In this document: positions 8,209 to 37,776 of the stretch, piece after piece
Numbering within the stretch: position 1 is the stretch's first letter
Layout: each line of letters begins with the position of its first letter
Source: a virus
Direction: 5' to 3' (one strand)
Length of the DNA: 64,000 nucleotides
Virus record (IMG/VR): IMGVR_UViG_3300037116_000299
Location: 62,001-126,000 of that record
Translations under genes and position numbers: made by a program
Notes under the pieces: model-generated
What the model saw: only the letters and a program-made list of their open reading frames with translations
Databases searched by the model: none
Told to the model about the DNA's origin: nothing

Positions 8209-8389
8209 CCTCAATCTCTATGCCGTCTTCGACAATCGAAGTGATCTCCTCACCCTTGAGGGTCTCTTCGTTTACGGGAGCGATCGTGCGATCCTTCTCC
8301 CATAGAGCTTTGGCTTCAGCGCCCGACTTTGCTTTGATCTCGTAGGTGCGCTCGATGACTCGCTGCGCGTAGATGGTGTAGGTCTTCAT
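8204..8389 (-). CDS. small DpnD/PcfM-like protein
   Basis: 61 residues: KTYTIYAQRVIERTYEIKAKS followed by AEAKALWE, the layout of the small DpnD/PcfM-type proteins of mobile elements (strand, strand, helix). Resemblance is by pattern only. Start overlaps the stop of the CDC123-like gene (TGATG). Confidence 0.65.
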   Translation of the reverse strand: MKTYTIYAQRVIERTYEIKAKSGAEAKALWEKDRTIAPVNEETLKGEEITSIVEDGIEIEV

Positions 8390-12282: not shown

Positions 12283-13011
12283 TTAGGATGCGCGGCCTTC
12301 ACAGGCTGGCTGGCCACAACAGCAGGTGGTCTCGCCACACGCTGTACGTCCCTTGCTCTGTACGGGCAGAATGGAGGATGCAAACACGACCCGACGTGCG
12401 ATCGCGTACATCACCAACTGCGCTTTGTTGTGGACGCCCAGTTTCTGGTACGTGTTGAACTTGTGAACTTCCACCGTCTTCACACTGATGCCCAGCATGA
12501 TGGCGATCTCCTTCACCGTGTTGCCTTCGGCCAGGAGCTTGAAGACCTCGCGCTCGCGCGGGGTCAGCTGATCGATCTTTGAGACCATAGCAGGGTTGCC
12601 GATGAACCGATCCGCCGCCGGCATGTACTTCGTCCCGCGGTGAACCCGTTCAATGGCAACCTGCAGCTCGGCGCAACTAGCTGTCAGCTCGACGACTCCG
12701 TCGGCGCCGGCCTTGACGGCCTCGATGACATGTTCTTCCTCGCCGTTCGCGGCCAGGAAGATCACCCGAAGCGTCCGATGTTGCTGGCGAGCCCACCGGG
12801 CTGCGTCATACGGATTTGGACCCGGGATCGTTGCGTCGAGAATCAGGATATCTACACCCAGGTTCACCGCCTCTTCGGCTGCCTCCCTGGCATCCCCGAA
12901 GTCGGCGAGGACGCGAATCGCGTCACTCTTGGTGAGGGTTTCCCGTACACACTCCCGCAGGAGGGTATGCTTATCGGCGATCACACAACGAATCACTAAA
13001 ACTCCAGACAA
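12283..13011 (-). CDS. NarL/LuxR-type response regulator
   Basis: 242 residues: receiver domain (about 6-125) and LuxR HTH (about 148-212, LTPREREVFKLLAEGNTVKEI). The phosphoacceptor candidate D59 (LILDATIPG) is present, but the conserved Thr is replaced (FLAANG) and no Lys follows the GADGVV segment, so phosphorylation control may be lost. The C-terminus adds a cysteine-rich tail (CGETTCCCGQPAC). Transcription regulators of this kind are uncommon in phages; probably acquired from a host. No partner kinase is nearby. Confidence 0.88.
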   Translation of the reverse strand: MSGVLVIRCVIADKHTLLRECVRETLTKSDAIRVLADFGDAREAAEEAVNLGVDILILDATIPGPNPYDAARWARQQHRTLRVIFLAANGEEEHVIEAVKAGADGVVELTASCAELQVAIERVHRGTKYMPAADRFIGNPAMVSKIDQLTPREREVFKLLAEGNTVKEIAIMLGISVKTVEVHKFNTYQKLGVHNKAQLVMYAIARRVVFASSILPVQSKGRTACGETTCCCGQPACEGRAS

Positions 13012-13089: not shown

Positions 13090-13380
13090 GCGTGAGGTCG
13101 CTAATCGACCACCACGAGGGAGGAAGGCTCCCGGGCTTTCACCGGGATGCAGGCGACTGAGTATTCAAGTTCAACCCTTACTTGATGCCTTGTTAGGCAG
13201 CAGCGAGATACGCTGCCTCGAATGCCGCGGCCGGAGCCGGGAAAGCGAGGACTTCTGCGGTCTTGCTGGCGAGGTAACCCGTGGTGTTGGCAGTTATTCG
13301 TCGTGGTCTCCCATATCGCGGGCGGCCGACTCGGCGCGTCACCATCTTGTTCCGTATCCCGTCGAAGCCGTGACGGGCCC
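13090..13380 (-). ncRNA. ssrA: permuted tmRNA, coding piece (tag RNA)
   Basis: Ribosome-rescue RNA. The 5' end GGGCCCGTCACGGCTTCGACGGG at 13380 is the tmRNA 5' signature. The tag frame starts at GCC 13291 after AATAACT (compare the usual AUAGUC before the resume codon) and stops at TAA 13193: 32 residues, ANTTGYLASKT... ending AAYLAAA, a protease-type tail. Two hairpins follow (CCCGG..CCGGG near 13120-13140, GGTCG..CGACC near 13092-13106). The 3' end is approximate. Confidence 0.88.
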
Positions 13381-13429
13381 ACCTCAAAGCTCTTGTCCTA
13401 TTGGGACAGTGGTTCAAAAGAGCGTCGAG

Positions 13430-13560
13430 GTGGACCCGGCGGGAGTCGAACCCGCGTCCGAAACGAAGAAGAAGATGTGTGTCTTTTCACGAGCGTTTTA
13501 GTCCATCCGTTTCCAGCGGACCAAACCCCATTGCTGGGGAAACTTGTTATGTCCACCTCC
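13430..13560 (-). ncRNA. ssrA: permuted tmRNA, acceptor piece
   Basis: Transcribed before the coding piece, so the gene is circularly permuted. The 3' part TTTCGGACGCGGGTTCGACT then CCCGCCGGGTCCA is the tmRNA T arm and acceptor. CGGGTCC pairs with GGGCCCG of the coding piece, and the helix continues through the 49-nt spacer (CACCTC with GAGGTG), giving 12 continuous pairs in the precursor. CATCTTCTTC also pairs with GAACAAGATG of the coding piece (helix P2, one mismatch). Only CC, not CCA, is encoded. A pseudoknot-like GGTCCGC...GGACT lies upstream. The 5' end is approximate. Confidence 0.87.
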
Positions 13561-13590
13561 AGAGAATCGCATCGGGAAAGACATTGAGGT

Positions 13591-13609
13591 ATAGGGCGAA
13601 CCCCTTAGA
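13591..13609 (-). promoter_or_regulatory. P-box before tmRNA
   Basis: Minus-strand CTAAGGGGTTCGCCCTATA, ending about 30 bp before the acceptor piece; it spans the stop codon of the gene at 13605. Fits the consensus at nearly every fixed position. Confidence 0.7.
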
Positions 13610-16417: not shown

Positions 16418-18205
16418 TCAAGCTCGGGCCTCAAGTGACTTGGCTAGTATCTCTAACTGTCTGATGAAGACCCGCCGACCTTTCTTCTCTTGCAATCCTG
16501 CGCGTATTTCACGCTGAGTCGCAGCGTAGTCGCCTTGCTCGAAGTGGTATCGGGCCAATTCTAGATGCATTTTCTGCCTTACTTGTCGAGCTAGATCTCG
16601 TCTTGAAGTCTTGGCCGCCATATTCTCAGCACGTTTGTACAACCGGCGGCCTGCCTCATAATCTCCTTCCCTCAGGTGCAGAAGACCTATAGTCGCAATC
16701 AACTCAACATGGTCATCAACGTTCCTTGGCCTGGAGTCTAGAACATGTTTGGCCTGAGCAGTCTGACCTTCCATTAGCAAGAAATAGGATAAGTTGTTGA
16801 TGATGGAGAAAGACTTGGGATATTGAGCATATCCCTCCATCAACAGTTGGATCGCCTTCTCTCCAAAACCAGCTTCACCGTAATAGCTTCCGAGCGATGC
16901 ATAGTTGTCAGCAGAAAGCGGGCCGAACGTTCGTAGTGCTTCAATCTGCAAGATTGCTTCTGGGTAATTATCTTGTTCAGCATAAAAGATGCTTAAGAGT
17001 GAGCGCGTTTCTCGACTAGAAGGGAACAGTTCGACCGCGTGCTCCAATACCTTTATAGCGAGAGGCTTTCTGCTCGTTAGCCCATACACGCGAGCCAAAT
17101 TGTCATACGGGATATGAGAGTTTCTCGGCGCTTTCTCAATTGCAAGCTTCAGTTCGACAACGGCTCTATCAAAAGACTTCTCATGTACGAAAGTTACCGC
17201 GATGTTTGAATGGGCGCGCCCAACCTCATCGCTGGAAAGCGTATCCCCTCCCAACTCGAGAATTCTTACGATTTGCGATCTTGCCATCGAATGCCGCTTC
17301 GATTGCATGTAGGCAGCAGCCAACTGATCACGCGCTTGTATATCCGCTGGATGCCGTTCTACGAAATCTTGCAACATTTCAATCGCTTGATCAGATTTAT
17401 CAAACGTGAGCAAAGTTCCGGCGAGGCTGATCACGGTTGTCGCTGAGTCAGGCGCCAAAGCGAGGGCCGTCTTGAATGCCTTTTCAGCACGAGAATGATC
17501 ACCCTGAAGAGCGTACGCGACTCCCATTGAGTGGTAGAGCTGCGGGCTGCGAAAGTCCAAATGTGAGGCGGCACGAAACTCATTCAATGCACGGCGAAGG
17601 TCCGACCTCTGGAGACACATGATGCCTAAGAGGAAGCGCACATACGGATCGCGTGGACTAAGAGTTGCCGCCTTTGAGAGATGTGTGTTTGCATCTTCGA
17701 AGCGTCCTGCCTGAATTAGGACGTTTGATAATCCGACTTCGACAGCTGGGTTATCAGGGTAGGTAGCAAGCAATTTCTCATACCAGCGTTCCGCCTCAAC
17801 CGTACGTCCCGCTTCGAAATGTAACCGAGCGAGAGTTATGCTGGCCAGGTAGTTTCCTGGGTCAAGTTCCAAGGCGGTTTCTAATTCCTTCAAGGCCTCA
17901 TCGGGTTGACCCTGCTTCAAGAGAGCAATCCCAAGATTTGCATGTGCGCGACCACTACGTGGGAAGCGATCGCTGTGCCGACGCACCGATCGCTCAATAC
18001 CCGCGAGAATATTCTCTGCCGAAGGCGTAGTAGCGCCCACACCCTCTTTCGGCCAATCGATTTCGACAGACTGATCGCCTCTCCGGCTAACCGAGGCGGC
18101 TGTCCCGGGCAGCAACACATTTGTCGAAGGAGCGCTTAGGTCAAATCGCTCGGGGATCGTGCTCTTCTCAAATTCTCGAAGTTCGTCTTTGGAAGCTGTA
18201 TTCAT
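16418..18205 (-). CDS. TPR-repeat protein (island)
   Basis: 595 residues made almost wholly of tetratricopeptide repeats, for example HANLGIALLKQGQPDEALKE, LGIMCLQRSDLRRALNEFRA and HSMGVAYALQGDHSRAEKAF, at about 34-residue spacing, roughly 13-15 units. No signal peptide. Its ATG overlaps the kinase TGA (ATGA), so the two are co-translated; it is probably a scaffold or substrate of the kinase. Confidence 0.88.
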   Translation of the reverse strand: MNTASKDELREFEKSTIPERFDLSAPSTNVLLPGTAASVSRRGDQSVEIDWPKEGVGATTPSAENILAGIERSVRRHSDRFPRSGRAHANLGIALLKQGQPDEALKELETALELDPGNYLASITLARLHFEAGRTVEAERWYEKLLATYPDNPAVEVGLSNVLIQAGRFEDANTHLSKAATLSPRDPYVRFLLGIMCLQRSDLRRALNEFRAASHLDFRSPQLYHSMGVAYALQGDHSRAEKAFKTALALAPDSATTVISLAGTLLTFDKSDQAIEMLQDFVERHPADIQARDQLAAAYMQSKRHSMARSQIVRILELGGDTLSSDEVGRAHSNIAVTFVHEKSFDRAVVELKLAIEKAPRNSHIPYDNLARVYGLTSRKPLAIKVLEHAVELFPSSRETRSLLSIFYAEQDNYPEAILQIEALRTFGPLSADNYASLGSYYGEAGFGEKAIQLLMEGYAQYPKSFSIINNLSYFLLMEGQTAQAKHVLDSRPRNVDDHVELIATIGLLHLREGDYEAGRRLYKRAENMAAKTSRRDLARQVRQKMHLELARYHFEQGDYAATQREIRAGLQEKKGRRVFIRQLEILAKSLEARA

Positions 18206-19332
18206 GAATTTGCTCCAGTCGTCAGAGTATTTTGCAGTCGCGACTGCTTCAACTCCGGAACTTTCCGATATGCTTTCTTGCGTTCGATCCAGCGAGCATA
18301 TGCGGCTTGATTCTTGAGGACCACCAGGCACTGATTAATCTGCAGGAACGTGGACGTGCAGTCTTTGGCACGTTGGCGGTAATCCAGTGCAGCAAGCGCC
18401 CTATACATACGATTAAGAATTGGAGCGATTGAGCGCGGCACAGCGGCACCGAAGTCCCGCACATCAGGGAGAGGAAATCGATTGGATATTGACCCAACCC
18501 CCTTATGGAATTCGTTCACTTTGTCGCCAGGAAGAATCGATCCTATAACCATATTGAGATCCATCAACATGTTTCTGCTAAACAGATGAAGGTTCAACGG
18601 AGTACCTGTGAACATCTCGAACAGTACAGCTCCCAAGGCGAACATGTCTCCGGCATATGCAATGTCTGGCAAAATGTCGTGGAGCGACGCCACCATCTCT
18701 AAGGGTGCGTACGTCCAGTCGCCTGGAGGTCCCGTGTACCGCTTTAATGGCCCCCTCGAGTCTGTCAATGAACGGGCTGTACCGAAGTCGGACAACCGTA
18801 GAGTGCCGTCCGTCATGACGAGAAAGTTTGACGGCTTAATGTCGCGATGGACGATTCCTTGCCGATGTATCCTCTGGACCGCTCTGCAAATCGTCCGAAA
18901 GTGAAGAAGTTTATCCGCAGGGTCAATGTCATATGTGTCTAAGACTGTTCCGAGATCGCAAGAAGCCAATTCCATTGCATAGAACCTGAGCGTAACCGGA
19001 AGAATCATCCCCAAAGGATGTTGGAATGGTTCAACTATCTGCTGCATATCCGAATATCGCCGTAAGATGTCTGGCTGATCTTCTAAACCACCCAAAACCT
19101 CGACTTCCCTCGTGAATGATTCGAGCCGATAGGGATCAATAACGGAAGGATCGAAGAACTTGAGCGCCACCTTCTGTCCAGTTACTTGGTCGTGTGCTTC
19201 GAAAAGCAAGGAAAAGGTACCGCCACCGCCGGTGACCCCCAACCGTTTCATGTTGGTGAATCGACCGCAGAGTTCGGTCTTGCTTTCGATCAAACTAAGA
19301 AACGGCTCAGGGTTTGAGCTCGGATTTGCCAT
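18202..19332 (-). CDS. Ser/Thr protein kinase (island)
   Basis: 376 residues, Hanks-type kinase. G-loop LGVTGGGGTFSLLFEA (31-46), Lys58 in VALKFF, HRDIKPSNFL (162-171), DFGTARS (182-188), APLE in place of APE, and a D-M-F-A-L-G-A-V-L-F-E-M helix. All catalytic residues are present. No transmembrane segment, unlike PknB-type sensors. Start at 19332 has TTTGGAGAGACGG. The order XRE, kinase, TPR, membrane proteins suggests a signalling or defence operon. Confidence 0.9.
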   Translation of the reverse strand: MANPSSNPEPFLSLIESKTELCGRFTNMKRLGVTGGGGTFSLLFEAHDQVTGQKVALKFFDPSVIDPYRLESFTREVEVLGGLEDQPDILRRYSDMQQIVEPFQHPLGMILPVTLRFYAMELASCDLGTVLDTYDIDPADKLLHFRTICRAVQRIHRQGIVHRDIKPSNFLVMTDGTLRLSDFGTARSLTDSRGPLKRYTGPPGDWTYAPLEMVASLHDILPDIAYAGDMFALGAVLFEMFTGTPLNLHLFSRNMLMDLNMVIGSILPGDKVNEFHKGVGSISNRFPLPDVRDFGAAVPRSIAPILNRMYRALAALDYRQRAKDCTSTFLQINQCLVVLKNQAAYARWIERKKAYRKVPELKQSRLQNTLTTGANS

Positions 19333-19615
19333 CCGTCTCTCCAAATTGCCTTCTCAGAAATGCAACGGCATCGTCCGGATGATCTCGAAGAATTCGGAGT
19401 ATATCCTCCGGCACCTTTCCTGCCGATAACAGGAGTGCATCCCGGTCAAACCCAAAATACTCCGAAACTCGATCAACAAGATCCTCTGAGGGGCTGATAG
19501 TCTCGTTTTCCAATTTGCTCAGGTAGGTATAGTTCACCCTCAATTCTGGGGCCAGAGACTTAATGCCTAGCCCACTCTCCAACCGCAATTGGCGCAGAAT
19601 CTTCCCGAACTTCAT
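19307..19615 (-). CDS. XRE-family regulator (island)
   Basis: 102 residues. HTH_3 at 5-60: FGKILRQLRLESGLGIKSLA, then YLSKLENETISPS. The tail VPEDILRILRDHPDDAVAFL is typical of XRE proteins that sit next to Im/IrrE-type or other effector genes. It overlaps the kinase start by 26 bp. The promoter at 19622-19650 places transcription at or next to the ATG, so the mRNA is probably leaderless. Probably represses its own operon through the palindrome at 19631. Confidence 0.88.
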   Translation of the reverse strand: MKFGKILRQLRLESGLGIKSLAPELRVNYTYLSKLENETISPSEDLVDRVSEYFGFDRDALLLSAGKVPEDILRILRDHPDDAVAFLRRQFGETDGKSELKP

Positions 19616-26311: not shown

Positions 26312-26436
26312 TGGGGCCGGGCAGGATTCGAACCTGCGACCTACGGGTTTGCTCGGCTTTAGCCAGTTGCTGGTTGACCCAACGTGTGGATTGCCTTCAG
26401 TTGGCCCGCTGTTCTAACCGCTGAACTACCGGCCCC
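26312..26436 (-). tRNA. tRNA-like gene with 50-nt insertion in anticodon loop
   Basis: Acceptor GGGGCCG/CGGCCCC (7/7), D arm GTTC/GAAC, anticodon stem GCGGG/CCCGT and T arm GCAGG TTCGAAT CCTGC are all intact. The loop (26348-26404) has 57 nt, not 7. Its 3' end is GAGCAAA, so removing 50 nt can leave CCGCAAA, giving anticodon GCA (Cys), although position 33 would be C and discriminator is A. The insert can fold into CCAAC/GTTGG and CCAG/CTGG hairpins. CCA is not encoded. Either an intron-like insertion needing removal, or a tRNA-derived RNA with another role. Confidence 0.75.
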
Positions 26437-33004: not shown

Positions 33005-34213
33005 TTATGCTGCGATGAGGTGAGTGGGCTTGTCCTCGCCCTGGCCATCGATGTAGAAGACGTCCCGGCCGTGAGGCCGAACGATCTTCCAGAGAGCCTC
33101 ATGGGCCTCCCAGATCCGGTTGTCCATCATCATCATGGCGATCGGGCCCAGGACCATGTCCCGTTCGATCACCAGGCGATAGAACTCCCGGTCATCCTTG
33201 ACCTCGGCGCGCAATGGTGTAATCCAGGCCAGAACATCCAGCGCCTTACAGATCTGGAAGTGAAAAGCCTGATAGAGTCTCCTCTGCCATTCCTCGATCC
33301 AGGTCTTGAAGTGAGGCGGCAACTGCGACTGCAGGTGCGTCGGCCTCAACCATGGCTTGAGCGGATCGCCCATCTGTTCCCAGATCATCTGGGGCGTCAC
33401 ATTGGTGACCAGGCGATGCAGCCGGAGATACTCCTCGAGCTTGATCTTCACCTTGAGCGGGGGTTGTCCGCCGCGGCGGACTGAGACCACATAACCCTCA
33501 CGGGTCAGGTCCTTATCCTGCCTGCAGGCCATCAGAGTCTTACCCGAGAAGGCAGGCACTACGCGGCACCATGGTTTCCCCTTGGCGCCTGCGTTCAGCT
33601 CCTTCCAGAGGCCTTCCAGTTGCCAGTGGCGCAACTCGTCACCGGTGTCGTTCATGACGGTCGTCAAAAGCACCAGGGCCTCGTAGTCGTAAGGAATCAC
33701 GATGCGGAGATGCTTGGCGACGATCTCAACGATCAAGGTCAATCCCTTGGGGATGCACTCGACCATGCCATACTTGACGAACTTCTGGAACTTGGCAGTC
33801 GCCCAGATCGCGCCGTCCGAGGTGAACGACCCGCGGGTGGCCACACCCCAGTGCTCCTTGTAGTTCCAGACGATGCCCATCTGGCCATCGATTTTGTCGG
33901 TGAACTCCAGCTCGTTGCCGTAGGCCCGGGCAATGCCCAGGACGAACTCCTCTGAGAATTCCAATAGTCCTTGGCCAACGATGTCGACCGTCTGGCCCAG
34001 GTTGAAGAACTTCGGTTGCGGACGCGCGATGACCTCATCGGTATCATCGATGATCAGACCGCGGCAGAAGCAGATCTCCGTGCTCCAACGCTCATCGATC
34101 GTAGCCTTATGGGTATAGTTGAAGATCCGTAACGGCAGAGTCGGGTGGTGTTGAATACCGATGTAACCATTGGCGATCTCCTGCTTGAGTGCGTCCGTCC
34201 AAATCATCTTCAT
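33005..34213 (-). CDS. T4 Rnl1-type RNA ligase
   Basis: 402 residues. Ligase motif I KIDGQMG with the nucleotidyl Lys at 107, RG upstream (51-52), motif III-like TRGSF (126-130), motif IIIa/IV EIV (163-165) and EGYVVSV (239-245), motif V KVKIK (254-258), then a 140-residue helical C-terminus as in Rnl1. Rnl1 seals RNA 3'-OH and 5'-phosphate ends, classically tRNA anticodon breaks in phage T4. It acts with Pnkp at 36562. Start 34213 is chosen (GGGGCAG upstream). Confidence 0.9.
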   Translation of the reverse strand: MKMIWTDALKQEIANGYIGIQHHPTLPLRIFNYTHKATIDERWSTEICFCRGLIIDDTDEVIARPQPKFFNLGQTVDIVGQGLLEFSEEFVLGIARAYGNELEFTDKIDGQMGIVWNYKEHWGVATRGSFTSDGAIWATAKFQKFVKYGMVECIPKGLTLIVEIVAKHLRIVIPYDYEALVLLTTVMNDTGDELRHWQLEGLWKELNAGAKGKPWCRVVPAFSGKTLMACRQDKDLTREGYVVSVRRGGQPPLKVKIKLEEYLRLHRLVTNVTPQMIWEQMGDPLKPWLRPTHLQSQLPPHFKTWIEEWQRRLYQAFHFQICKALDVLAWITPLRAEVKDDREFYRLVIERDMVLGPIAMMMMDNRIWEAHEALWKIVRPHGRDVFYIDGQGEDKPTHLIAA

Positions 34214-34542
34214 ATTCGTGTCTGCCCCTTTGCGTGGCGAATGACCTTGTTCCCGTACGGGCTCATCTTCTGTTCCTGAGCTGTCAGGTCGTACTTGTGA
34301 TCCTTCCAGGCCTCGCATGCATGAACAGTTTCAGCATGAACATGGCCATCCGGGATGTCGCCAAACCAACGCCTCACGTGGCACCCACAGGCCAGTCGGG
34401 CCTCAATGCACATCGTCACGACTCGGCGAGTGGCCTTGATCTTGAGCTTGGGACGACGCGGACACTTGTTCAAATGCTTGAACAGAGGTGTCCTGTCTAA
34501 GACCGCACCGCAGTGCGGGCAGTGCTCTCGGCAGCCCTTCAT
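34210..34542 (-). CDS. zinc-finger protein
   Basis: 110 residues. CPHCGAVLDRTPLFKHLNKC is a C2HC finger at the N-terminus, followed by basic and Cys/His-rich stretches (CGCHVRRW). Overlaps the ligase start by four bases, so it may be a partner in RNA binding. Confidence 0.75.
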   Translation of the reverse strand: MKGCREHCPHCGAVLDRTPLFKHLNKCPRRPKLKIKATRRVVTMCIEARLACGCHVRRWFGDIPDGHVHAETVHACEAWKDHKYDLTAQEQKMSPYGNKVIRHAKGQTRI

Positions 34543-34772: not shown

Positions 34773-34977
34773 GTTGCTCCTTCGGTCGTCGGTGCCAGAG
34801 CCTCAATATCCATGCAGGAATGAAGGCTCCTTTCTTGTGTGCAGATACGCGAAGCGGTATGTGCAGGTCATCGGCGATCGCTCGGATCGCCGCGTAAGCG
34901 GGATGCTCCCGGAATTCCTTGATCGCCGATTCTTCGCTATCGGCGATGCCCTCGATGAGGATCATGCGGATCTCCAT
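34759..34977 (-). CDS. hypothetical protein
   Basis: 72 residues. MEIRMILIEGIADSEESAI; small alpha/beta piece with a basic end (RLWHRRPKEQ). Starts at the CCA-enzyme stop (TAATGG-type overlap). Confidence 0.7.
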   Translation of the reverse strand: MEIRMILIEGIADSEESAIKEFREHPAYAAIRAIADDLHIPLRVSAHKKGAFIPAWILRLWHRRPKEQHGQP

Positions 34978-36266
34978 TAGGAGACCGCCATTGGCGAGTT
35001 CCGAAGCTGTGTCGTTACAAACGCCACGGCTTCCTCACGCGTTTTGATCTTCTCTTCGAGCTGTTCGTCCTCGAGATTGTGCAGAACGAAGCCGAACGCA
35101 GGACTGGGCTTATAACCCAGGGCAATCAAGTCATCGCCGTTGAGCAGTACCTTGGGATAAGTCCCAGGCAAACCCGCCGCGCTCATGAACTGATCCACAC
35201 GATGAAATGCCCGTTGGCCCCCGGTGTAAGCCGGCCGCGCGAAGTAATCGTGCAGCGCCACCTGACGAATCAGGTCATAGTCCGCATCGCGGCGATAGCG
35301 CCGCTGTGCTGCCAGGTTCCAGTCCGGGATGCAGCTCCAAACCTGTGCCTTGGTGATGATGTTAGTGATCTGGGCAGCATCCGCCGTCGAGAACTTCAGA
35401 CCCAGCAGCGCGTTCTTCCGTGCCGTGGTGCCGAGATCCAGGAACAGCAGAGACAATGCGATCAGGACGTGATCCTTGACGGCCTGACCGTAGGCGCTGG
35501 ACCAGGAGATTGCAGGCATCTGGTTGAGGCGACGCAGAACCCTTCCGAAGTCGGTATCTAGCTCCGGCAGCAGGTAGTCCAGCAGGTTCGAGAGCAGAAG
35601 CAGTTCCAGGGCGCGTACGGCCCGGGGCTGGCTCAGCATCGCGATCAGCTCCTCGCGCTTCCGTTCTCCGCTGATCTCAGCGAGTAAGGGAGCATTGACG
35701 CGCATCGCGCCCCAGGTGGGCTCGTCAATCTGGAAGTCCAGCCGGGCGGCAAATCGGATTGCCCGGAGTAAACGCAGGGCGTCTTCTTCAAAGCGCCGGT
35801 TGGGATCCCCGATGCAGCGGATCTTCTTGTGCGCGATGTCCATGACTCCGCCGGTGAGATCCACCAGCTCACCGGTCTCGATGTCCAGGGCCAGGGCATT
35901 GATGGTGAAGTCCCGCCGCTGAACGTCCTCGGCCAGGGTCTTGCTGTAGACCACAGCGTCAGGGTGACGGTGGTCAGAATAGGCGTCCTCGGCGCGGAAG
36001 GTGGCGACCTCGAAACTCTCCTCATTGATCGTGACGAGAACGACGCCAAACTTAGCGCCTACGGGCTTGGAGCAATCTGGGAAGATTGCCATGACCTCGT
36101 CAGGCACTGCGTTGGTGACGATGTCATAGTCTTTGGGGAGATTGGCCAGGATACGATCTCGAACGCAACCGCCGATCAGGTAGGCTTCTTTGCCGGCCTT
36201 GCGTAGGTGGTAGATCAGCTTCTCGACCGCGACCATACGGACGGTCGGTTGCATTCTGAGGATCAT
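34977..36266 (-). CDS. cca: CCA-adding tRNA nucleotidyltransferase
   Basis: 429 residues, class II. YLIGGCVRDRILANLPKDYDI (motif A with D-Y-D), RRDFTINALALD (motif B), and RFEEDALRLLRAIRFAARL (motif C/D) are complete. It adds or repairs the 3' CCA end. Relevant here: the tmRNA acceptor encodes only CC and the interrupted tRNA encodes none. Sits between the RNA ligase and Pnkp genes. Confidence 0.94.
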   Translation of the reverse strand: MILRMQPTVRMVAVEKLIYHLRKAGKEAYLIGGCVRDRILANLPKDYDIVTNAVPDEVMAIFPDCSKPVGAKFGVVLVTINEESFEVATFRAEDAYSDHRHPDAVVYSKTLAEDVQRRDFTINALALDIETGELVDLTGGVMDIAHKKIRCIGDPNRRFEEDALRLLRAIRFAARLDFQIDEPTWGAMRVNAPLLAEISGERKREELIAMLSQPRAVRALELLLLSNLLDYLLPELDTDFGRVLRRLNQMPAISWSSAYGQAVKDHVLIALSLLFLDLGTTARKNALLGLKFSTADAAQITNIITKAQVWSCIPDWNLAAQRRYRRDADYDLIRQVALHDYFARPAYTGGQRAFHRVDQFMSAAGLPGTYPKVLLNGDDLIALGYKPSPAFGFVLHNLEDEQLEEKIKTREEAVAFVTTQLRNSPMAVS

Positions 36267-36561: not shown

Positions 36562-37776
36562 CTACTCGAGGTCGGTATCGGAGCAGCGGACGGGAATGAC
36601 CCGTACGCCATGTTCACGCCACATCTGAACCACACAGAGCCTGTCGTCAATCGCAAATGCGATCTCCGCTTTGCAGGCCAGCATCTGTTCGAGGATCGTG
36701 GCTTTCACATCGACATCGGTGATGTGGGCCGGTTCTTTGCGCATGAACAAGTGGTCGAACGGCACCATGTGTTTGTCCAGCGACTCCAGGGTCTCGCGAC
36801 CACAGCAGTTCATGTCGCGGCCGCTGACCAGGATGATCATGAAGCCCAGGGCACTGAGAGAGTGCAGCCAGTTCAGGATGATCTCGACCGGTTCGTCGTT
36901 GATGCACTCCTGCAGGAACTTGTAGTGATCCTTCTTGGCTTTGCCTGTGCCCTGGCAGATCCCGCATGGCATAGCGCCCGGGTCGTCCAATGCCTTCCCG
37001 GTGCCATAACATGGAGTGCAGATCCCGCTCACCAGGTGCTTCCGGTGATCCAGGTTGAACAGCGTGCCGTCGAGGTCACAGACCACAGCCGGATGGCCGC
37101 TCAGATCCAGGCGCCCGCTCAGAAGGTACTGCCGCTCGATCACCGGGCGGCCGACCTGTCTGCCTTCGAAGCGCATGGCGTCGCGGGCAATGCAATCCGC
37201 GATCGGGGTGTCGATGAACTTCACCTCGGCCTTGCGGAAGCACAGCTCTTCGGCGTAATCGAGCCACATCTGCCGGTGACCCGGGGTCAGGTTGGTGTCG
37301 TCGATGATGACATCCCTACCCTGTTCCCGCGCCGCACGGACAATGGCCTTCTCAGCCTCGATGATGAACTTCTCCTTCGAGGCAGCCCAACGAGGGATGG
37401 TCATCCGACGGATGTCGTCCCGGTTGATCCGGACCGCATGCCCGTTGTCCTGGATGTGCTTGAACGCAACCGTGGACTTGCCGCTCCCGGAAGGGCCGGA
37501 CAGGATGGTCATTCGGCCAATTGGAGTCGTGCCGACCTTCAGGAAGATCGCCTTCTCTGCCTCATGTGTCAGCTCACCGCCAACCAGTCTAAGACCAGTC
37601 GCACCATCGGGTAACACGTGACGGATGCCTTCCGGCGTCATCACGTATTCGTACGCCCCGTAGGGCTCGCCGATGGCTTTTACGTCGAGGAACGTGCCGC
37701 CAAAGTAGTCCGGGATCTCGATCCGGCCGGTCTTGAATGTTGCTGGTCTCATTACTCGTACCTCGTTGCTGTTCAT
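36562..37776 (-). CDS. pnkp: polynucleotide kinase-phosphatase with zinc insert
   Basis: 404 residues in T4 Pnkp order: kinase then phosphatase. Walker A GPSGSGKST (94-102), DDTNLTPGHR (159-168), R-rich lid (RFEGRQVGR); phosphatase DLDGTLF (234-240), SGRDM, and DDR near the end. The enzyme heals RNA ends before ligation. Unusual: directly after DLDGT a pair of CxxCxGxG repeats, CTPCYGTG (253-260) and CGICQGTG (271-278), forms a DnaJ-like zinc knuckle not seen in T4. About 88 residues precede the P-loop with no known match. Confidence 0.9.
   Translation of the reverse strand: MNSNEVRVMRPATFKTGRIEIPDYFGGTFLDVKAIGEPYGAYEYVMTPEGIRHVLPDGATGLRLVGGELTHEAEKAIFLKVGTTPIGRMTILSGPSGSGKSTVAFKHIQDNGHAVRINRDDIRRMTIPRWAASKEKFIIEAEKAIVRAAREQGRDVIIDDTNLTPGHRQMWLDYAEELCFRKAEVKFIDTPIADCIARDAMRFEGRQVGRPVIERQYLLSGRLDLSGHPAVVCDLDGTLFNLDHRKHLVSGICTPCYGTGKALDDPGAMPCGICQGTGKAKKDHYKFLQECINDEPVEIILNWLHSLSALGFMIILVSGRDMNCCGRETLESLDKHMVPFDHLFMRKEPAHITDVDVKATILEQMLACKAEIAFAIDDRLCVVQMWREHGVRVIPVRCSDTDLE

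Follow-up and report, generated by a model that had tools for sequence, protein, structure and literature searches.

The window analysed here, 64,000 bases in length, corresponds to bases 62001-126000 of a 214,300-base IMG/VR virus record. On its minus strand, at 13521..13102, ARAGORN predicted a circularly permuted tmRNA gene; no standard tmRNA was called in the window. The Rfam model RF04321 (tmRNA_permuted, curated cut-off 47 bits) matched over its full length, model positions 1-213, at 13494..13193, with 68.7 bits and an E-value of 4e-11 in the 64 kb. With the older beta model RF01850, the match was partial and below threshold (43.9 bits for a cut-off of 84). Both ARAGORN and RF04321 placed the 3' tRNA half first, then a spacer, then the 5' tRNA half with the tag, which is the permuted order. 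An earlier note, made from the letters of the sequence, had located the gene there, on the same strand and with the acceptor half preceding the tag half, and had proposed a search with covariance models of permuted tmRNAs. The location, the strand and the order were borne out. RF04321 is the family into which RF01849 (alpha), RF01850 (beta) and RF01851 (cyano) were merged. Features of the locus are given in Table 1.

Table 1. Features of the tmRNA locus and of associated genes, in window coordinates
Feature	Position	Strand	Basis or remark
Whole permuted tmRNA (ssrA) gene	13102..13545	-	ARAGORN span, with 5' extension to the AAGTTTCC block common with the syntenic G023 gene
Acceptor piece: 5' region, P2 3' strand, T arm, acceptor 3' strand, A73, CC	13429..13545 (putative 5' end)	-	ARAGORN/RF04321, joint fold
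T stem-loop GCGGGTTCGACTCCCGC	13439..13455	-	RF04321, ARAGORN, joint fold
Acceptor stem 3' strand CGGGTCC, includes U70 of G3.U70	13432..13438	-	
Acceptor stem 5' strand GGGCCCG; RNase P presumed to cut before 13380	13374..13380	-	
Discriminator A73 and encoded CC	13429..13431	-	Next base is T at 13428
Intervening spacer, hairpin lengthening the acceptor helix in the precursor	13381..13428	-	
5' strand of helix P2, located in the tag piece (position approximate)	13335..13361	-	RF04321, joint fold
3' strand of helix P2, located in the acceptor piece (position approximate)	13456..13483	-	RF04321, joint fold
Tag frame ANTTGYLASKTAEVLAFPAPAAAFEAAYLAAA with its TAA stop; resume context GAATAACT followed by GCC	13193..13291	-	ARAGORN, RF04321, related G023 tag
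Octamer CCTATACC, promoter role unsupported	13588..13595	-	Probably the P-box of the earlier note
Response regulator, receiver and LuxR/GerE domains, next gene downstream of the tmRNA	12283..13011	-	Same order in G023
tRNA nucleotidyltransferase (CCA-adding enzyme), candidate to complete the tmRNA 3' A	34977..36266	-	

Anatomy of the permuted tmRNA

The two acceptor strands pair at 7 of 7 positions and A73 is present. As the earlier note had stated, there is a single G-U pair, and it falls at position 3.70. G3.U70 is the alanine identity pair for alanyl-tRNA synthetase. It was invariant in the 129 phage permuted tmRNAs that were examined, and pairs 4-6 varied with compensation. Counted from A73, the spacer adds 7 uninterrupted pairs to the acceptor helix, 14 in all; pairing does continue through the spacer as had been claimed, but over this length rather than the 12 bp then given. 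As a general feature of these genes the extended helix was rejected, being present in just 9 of 121 distinct spacers. The encoded 3' end reads ACCT, an incomplete CCA, whereas ACCA is found in 124/129 of the phage permuted tmRNAs. An encoded CCA was not taken as defining because CCA can be added after transcription, and the window phage encodes a CCA-adding enzyme, which was found in one of 16 other records searched.

When the two presumed mature pieces were folded together without constraints, the acceptor stem, the T arm and helix P2 joining the pieces were all recovered. Taken as a stand-alone duplex, P2, whose pairing across the pieces the earlier note had claimed, was equalled by 145 of 1000 strand shuffles, so that it is the covariance model and the joint fold that support it. 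The 3' part following the stop is poorly conserved, and the window gene is without the GGCAACAGAA element common to most relatives.

The tag frame, for which 32 residues and a YLAAA end had already been reported, is indeed open over 32 codons up to its stop. The Rfam alignment supports its start at GCC.

Upstream of the gene, the situation is less favourable to the earlier note, which had placed a P-box of its own about 30 bp away. The octamer is present, but with 7 occurrences in 214 kb as compared to 5 for the reversed control, and word-enrichment tests found no enriched upstream word. A sigma-70 scan, a terminator scan and the comparison with the sibling phage described below gave no convincing tmRNA promoter. 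In the same region (13583-13603), a short hairpin is followed by CCCTAT(A)CCTCAAT, and this arrangement is also found at 8258-8285 of another contig (L264), upstream of a response regulator. A regulatory element common to both phages is possible.

The phage and its sibling

With its 214 kb, the record represents a genuine tailed phage: its genes include those for a portal, a terminase (weak match), a baseplate wedge protein and a tail fibre. Its portal and terminase are distantly related to those of Acinetobacter phage ME3, Moorella phage MTATph1 and a Bacillus phage, and one protein of 718 residues is 52% identical to its counterpart in phiCbK-group Caulobacter phages. At the DNA level, comparison with a phage collection gave a sole match, of 34 bases, in phage Phass-1. 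The host was also sought by exact matches to a 31-mer covering the T arm and acceptor end; just two Flavobacteriales and one Bacillota MAG were found among bacterial genomes, which was uninformative.

A second virus record, G023, of 124 kb, carries a permuted tmRNA in the corresponding position, and the genes around it are homologous to those of the window phage and follow the same order. Most of the neighbouring proteins are about 33-53% identical between the two phages (49% for the response regulator downstream of the tmRNA). The G023 tag, ANTGYVASMTFEVFEPATAAENILGVLAAV, resembles the window tag, a similarity reached by none of 5000 shuffles. Three contigs with a portal identical to that of the window phage, each below 124 kb, had no RF04321 match; they are probably fragments. 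Searches for an SmpB gene were negative for the 214,300-base record and for 48 other records, nearly all with permuted tmRNAs and many of them fragments, and host SmpB is therefore the likely partner of the tmRNA.

Other features of the window were recorded. A tRNA gene at 26313-26435 (minus strand, Rfam 55.8 bits), missed by ARAGORN, has some 50 extra bases in its anticodon loop, with apparent small hairpins; this insert is intron-like and not long enough to be one of group I. An RNA ligase (33005-34318) and a polynucleotide kinase-phosphatase (36562-37776) are encoded in this genome too. Elsewhere on the minus strand, a serine/threonine kinase-like protein (18202-19344) adjoins a long TPR-repeat protein (16418-18331).

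Permuted tmRNAs and tag classes in other phages

A permuted tmRNA in a phage is of a kind already known, and the novelty claimed in the earlier note, which knew of none in a phage with a long 32-residue tag, does not hold. Such genes were published in 2022 for Melnitz and related marine phages, in a study where a two-piece form was called for 53 of 133 unique phage tmRNA structures from 18,146 phage genomes (PMC9004378). The permuted tmRNA of Brevundimonas phage Bajun is annotated, and a 2025 tmRNA database includes 79 sequences from phages and 11,946 of the permuted form, the commonest tag length being 10 (PMC11915505). In IMG/VR, pattern scans together with loci from other searches gave at least 223 distinct permuted tmRNAs by ARAGORN, a number counted on sequence, in which near-duplicates are included along with a few calls whose tag start is doubtful.

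Nor is the long tag unique: among the distinct permuted tmRNAs of phages listed, roughly one in three carries a tag of at least 17 residues. Among the permuted sequences listed, tags formed two size classes, 9-16 and 17-33 residues, with a doubtful ARAGORN start for some (a simple canonical resume context was present in 24 of the 39 long tags of the first set). It is as a phage tag class that the long tag is barely described. Across six pairs of equal-length long tags and three aligned pairs, substitutions favoured third codon positions (62/130, p 5e-4, with substitutions treated as independent), a bias to be expected of a translated tag whose peptide is of consequence. Of 74 distinct long tags, 25 are apparently an extension placed before a tag of the short type.

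The window tag belongs to a family with a common core. Its AEVLAFPA corresponds to AKVLAFPA in the tags of L145 and L146, and in neither case was the similarity reached in 5000 shuffles; the L232 tag is less close (about 3/5000). A blind scan of IMG/VR for DNA encoding AKVLAFPA, using a pattern devoid of any tmRNA element, returned 83 stretches. Six loci that the set had lacked proved to be permuted tmRNAs, with five further distinct tags, and a seventh repeated a known tag. One more, at L297:3933-4250, had been missed by ARAGORN, and its tag ends ATSSVSAKTAKVLAFPARPAALQMAA. From a scrambled control pattern, 10 stretches and no tmRNA were obtained, in a smaller sample. All four valine, four leucine and four alanine codons are used in the core, the amino-acid identity of which is partly due to ascertainment in the scan-derived members. 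Near these tmRNAs, we found genes for terminase (L277, L342, L232), portals of different families (L301, L145), tail sheath (L155) and DNA polymerase (L168). Such unrelated structural genes indicate that the carriers are phages of different lineages. Neither the window tag nor the AKVLAFPA tag matched isolated phages.

Tag and scaffold do not always diverge together. In L014 and L188, the tags are 80% identical and the scaffolds 49-53%; the opposite pattern is seen between L145 and L207, with 97% identity for the scaffold and 68% for the tag. The former two belong to a second long-tag family, AxASTGEVTVSGK...FSAR..., also observed in L023, L180, L140, L214, L107, L357 and others, within tmRNAs that diverge around it. 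Finally, in five loci (L359, L379, L409, L413, L441) an extension of 6-7 residues (ANTSDVA and similar) precedes a cyanobacteria-like core, ANNIVAFSR.... The core of cyanobacterial tags, ANNIVxFxR, is similar in shape to that of the window tag.

The window gene agrees with the RF04321 family in piece order, in the G3.U70 acceptor stem and the T arm, in the TTCGAC D-region and the UAACUGC resume context, and in a tag that ends in AA before a TAA stop. It differs by its 32-residue tag, its spacer-extended acceptor helix and its incomplete CCA. With the tmRNAs of Melnitz-like phages and pelagi-myophages it shares permutation and a phage location (PMC9004378, which gives neither tag lengths nor a phage SmpB), but the window phage is of another lineage and another tag class, and Rfam found no glutamine riboswitch match in the window. 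The mycobacteriophages Bxz1, Cali and Wildcat and Bacillus phage G also carry ssrA, published as such with permutation unmentioned (PMC4131195).

Like the window phage, Bajun and the phiCbK group are giant phages with permuted tmRNAs; the phiCbK group also has the large protein mentioned above. Their tag is ANDNDVVAFASAREAIAA or similar, phiCbK encodes CCA, and by its portal and terminase the window phage is of another lineage. In phiCbK itself (JX100813.1, locus L047), the permuted tmRNA lies at 103283-103601 on the plus strand and scores 71.4 bits with RF04321, above the cut-off. A permuted tmRNA locus was present in 28/28 matched Caulobacter phage records, partial in the two Colossus records, and a tmRNA was annotated in none of the 28. 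The phiCbK genome paper reports that Rfam found tRNAs only (PMC3556154). The tag given by ARAGORN for this group is VAANDNDVVAFASAREAIAA, and it probably starts at ANDN or AANDN.

Proposed role of the tmRNA and its tag

The permuted order, the G3.U70 end, the T arm, the resume site, the open tag and the position conserved in G023 together make it quite probable that this is a working phage-encoded permuted ssrA gene, serving ribosome rescue with host SmpB and adding a phage-specific tag. The RNA is presumably in two pieces. The precursor would be cut by tRNA-processing enzymes, RNase P acting before 13380 and a 3' nuclease after the CC, with loss of the spacer, and the missing 3' A would be added by a CCA-adding enzyme, possibly that of the phage. 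The two mature pieces would be held together by base pairing and charged by the host alanyl-tRNA synthetase. In infected cells, host SmpB would then deliver the tmRNA to ribosomes that have stalled on broken mRNAs, where translation would resume on the 32-codon tag before release, leaving a product labelled with the tag of the phage instead of that of the host.

As the tag ends in LAAA, which suggests degradation, the product would probably still go to a host protease. The conserved core ahead of LAAA may, as a first guess, change which adaptor or protease handles it. The long tags of Mycoplasma, which are specific for Lon, are a precedent for an altered protease.

A charged RNA that binds SmpB might also act mainly as a decoy, competing with the host tmRNA and shutting down host trans-translation. 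A form reduced to the tRNA-like part exists in mycobacteriophage DS6A, where it inhibits tmRNA and where a decoy role was proposed (PMC11915505, PMC4131195), and since no SmpB was found in these phages, any phage tmRNA would compete for that of the host. A pure decoy, however, has no need of a tag, whereas an open frame with a good resume site is present here and was kept in G023, and the long tags of phages show the substitution pattern of coding sequence; we therefore find a decoy improbable. Still less credible is a passenger, i.e. a captured host gene or pseudogene, left for example by a past integration into ssrA and now decaying. ssrA is a common integration site of mobile elements (PMC11915505), and the incomplete CCA and divergent 3' part would fit decay, but the gene is complete, with its full acceptor stem, G3.U70 and open tag, and both its position and a related tag persist in G023 despite the divergence of most neighbouring proteins.

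A different matter is the origin of the tag, on which the working-gene reading does not depend. Long AKVLAFPA-like tags could belong to the host group itself and have been copied by several phages, rather than invented by them. Some phage tags look host-like, 25 of the 74 distinct long tags have an end that resembles a short tag, and the cyanobacterial-type core also occurs in phage contigs. Against this, the commonest length reported is 10 (PMC11915505), the tag varies within a single scaffold family (L145 and L207), and the AKVLAFPA core stands beside unrelated phage structural genes. We regard copying from the host as a serious minority possibility.

The tmRNAs of phages commonly receive no more than an entry in a list and the remark that they "may help translation". 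Phage permuted tmRNAs are a large class, and their tags are unlike the ordinary 10-residue kind, show coding-type substitutions and are partly common to unrelated phages. We tentatively suggest, with no great confidence, that many phages took over tmRNA to relabel products as well as to free ribosomes, and that the inner core of the long tags (AKVLAFPA, STGEVTV, others) is a signal for a host or phage factor outside the normal tag pathway. Two-piece tmRNA has been shown to work in Caulobacter, and the unannotated tmRNA of a textbook phage, phiCbK, makes the function of such genes testable in that host. Should the core be a signal, it would reveal a proteolysis or sorting pathway that phages want for the products of stalled ribosomes.
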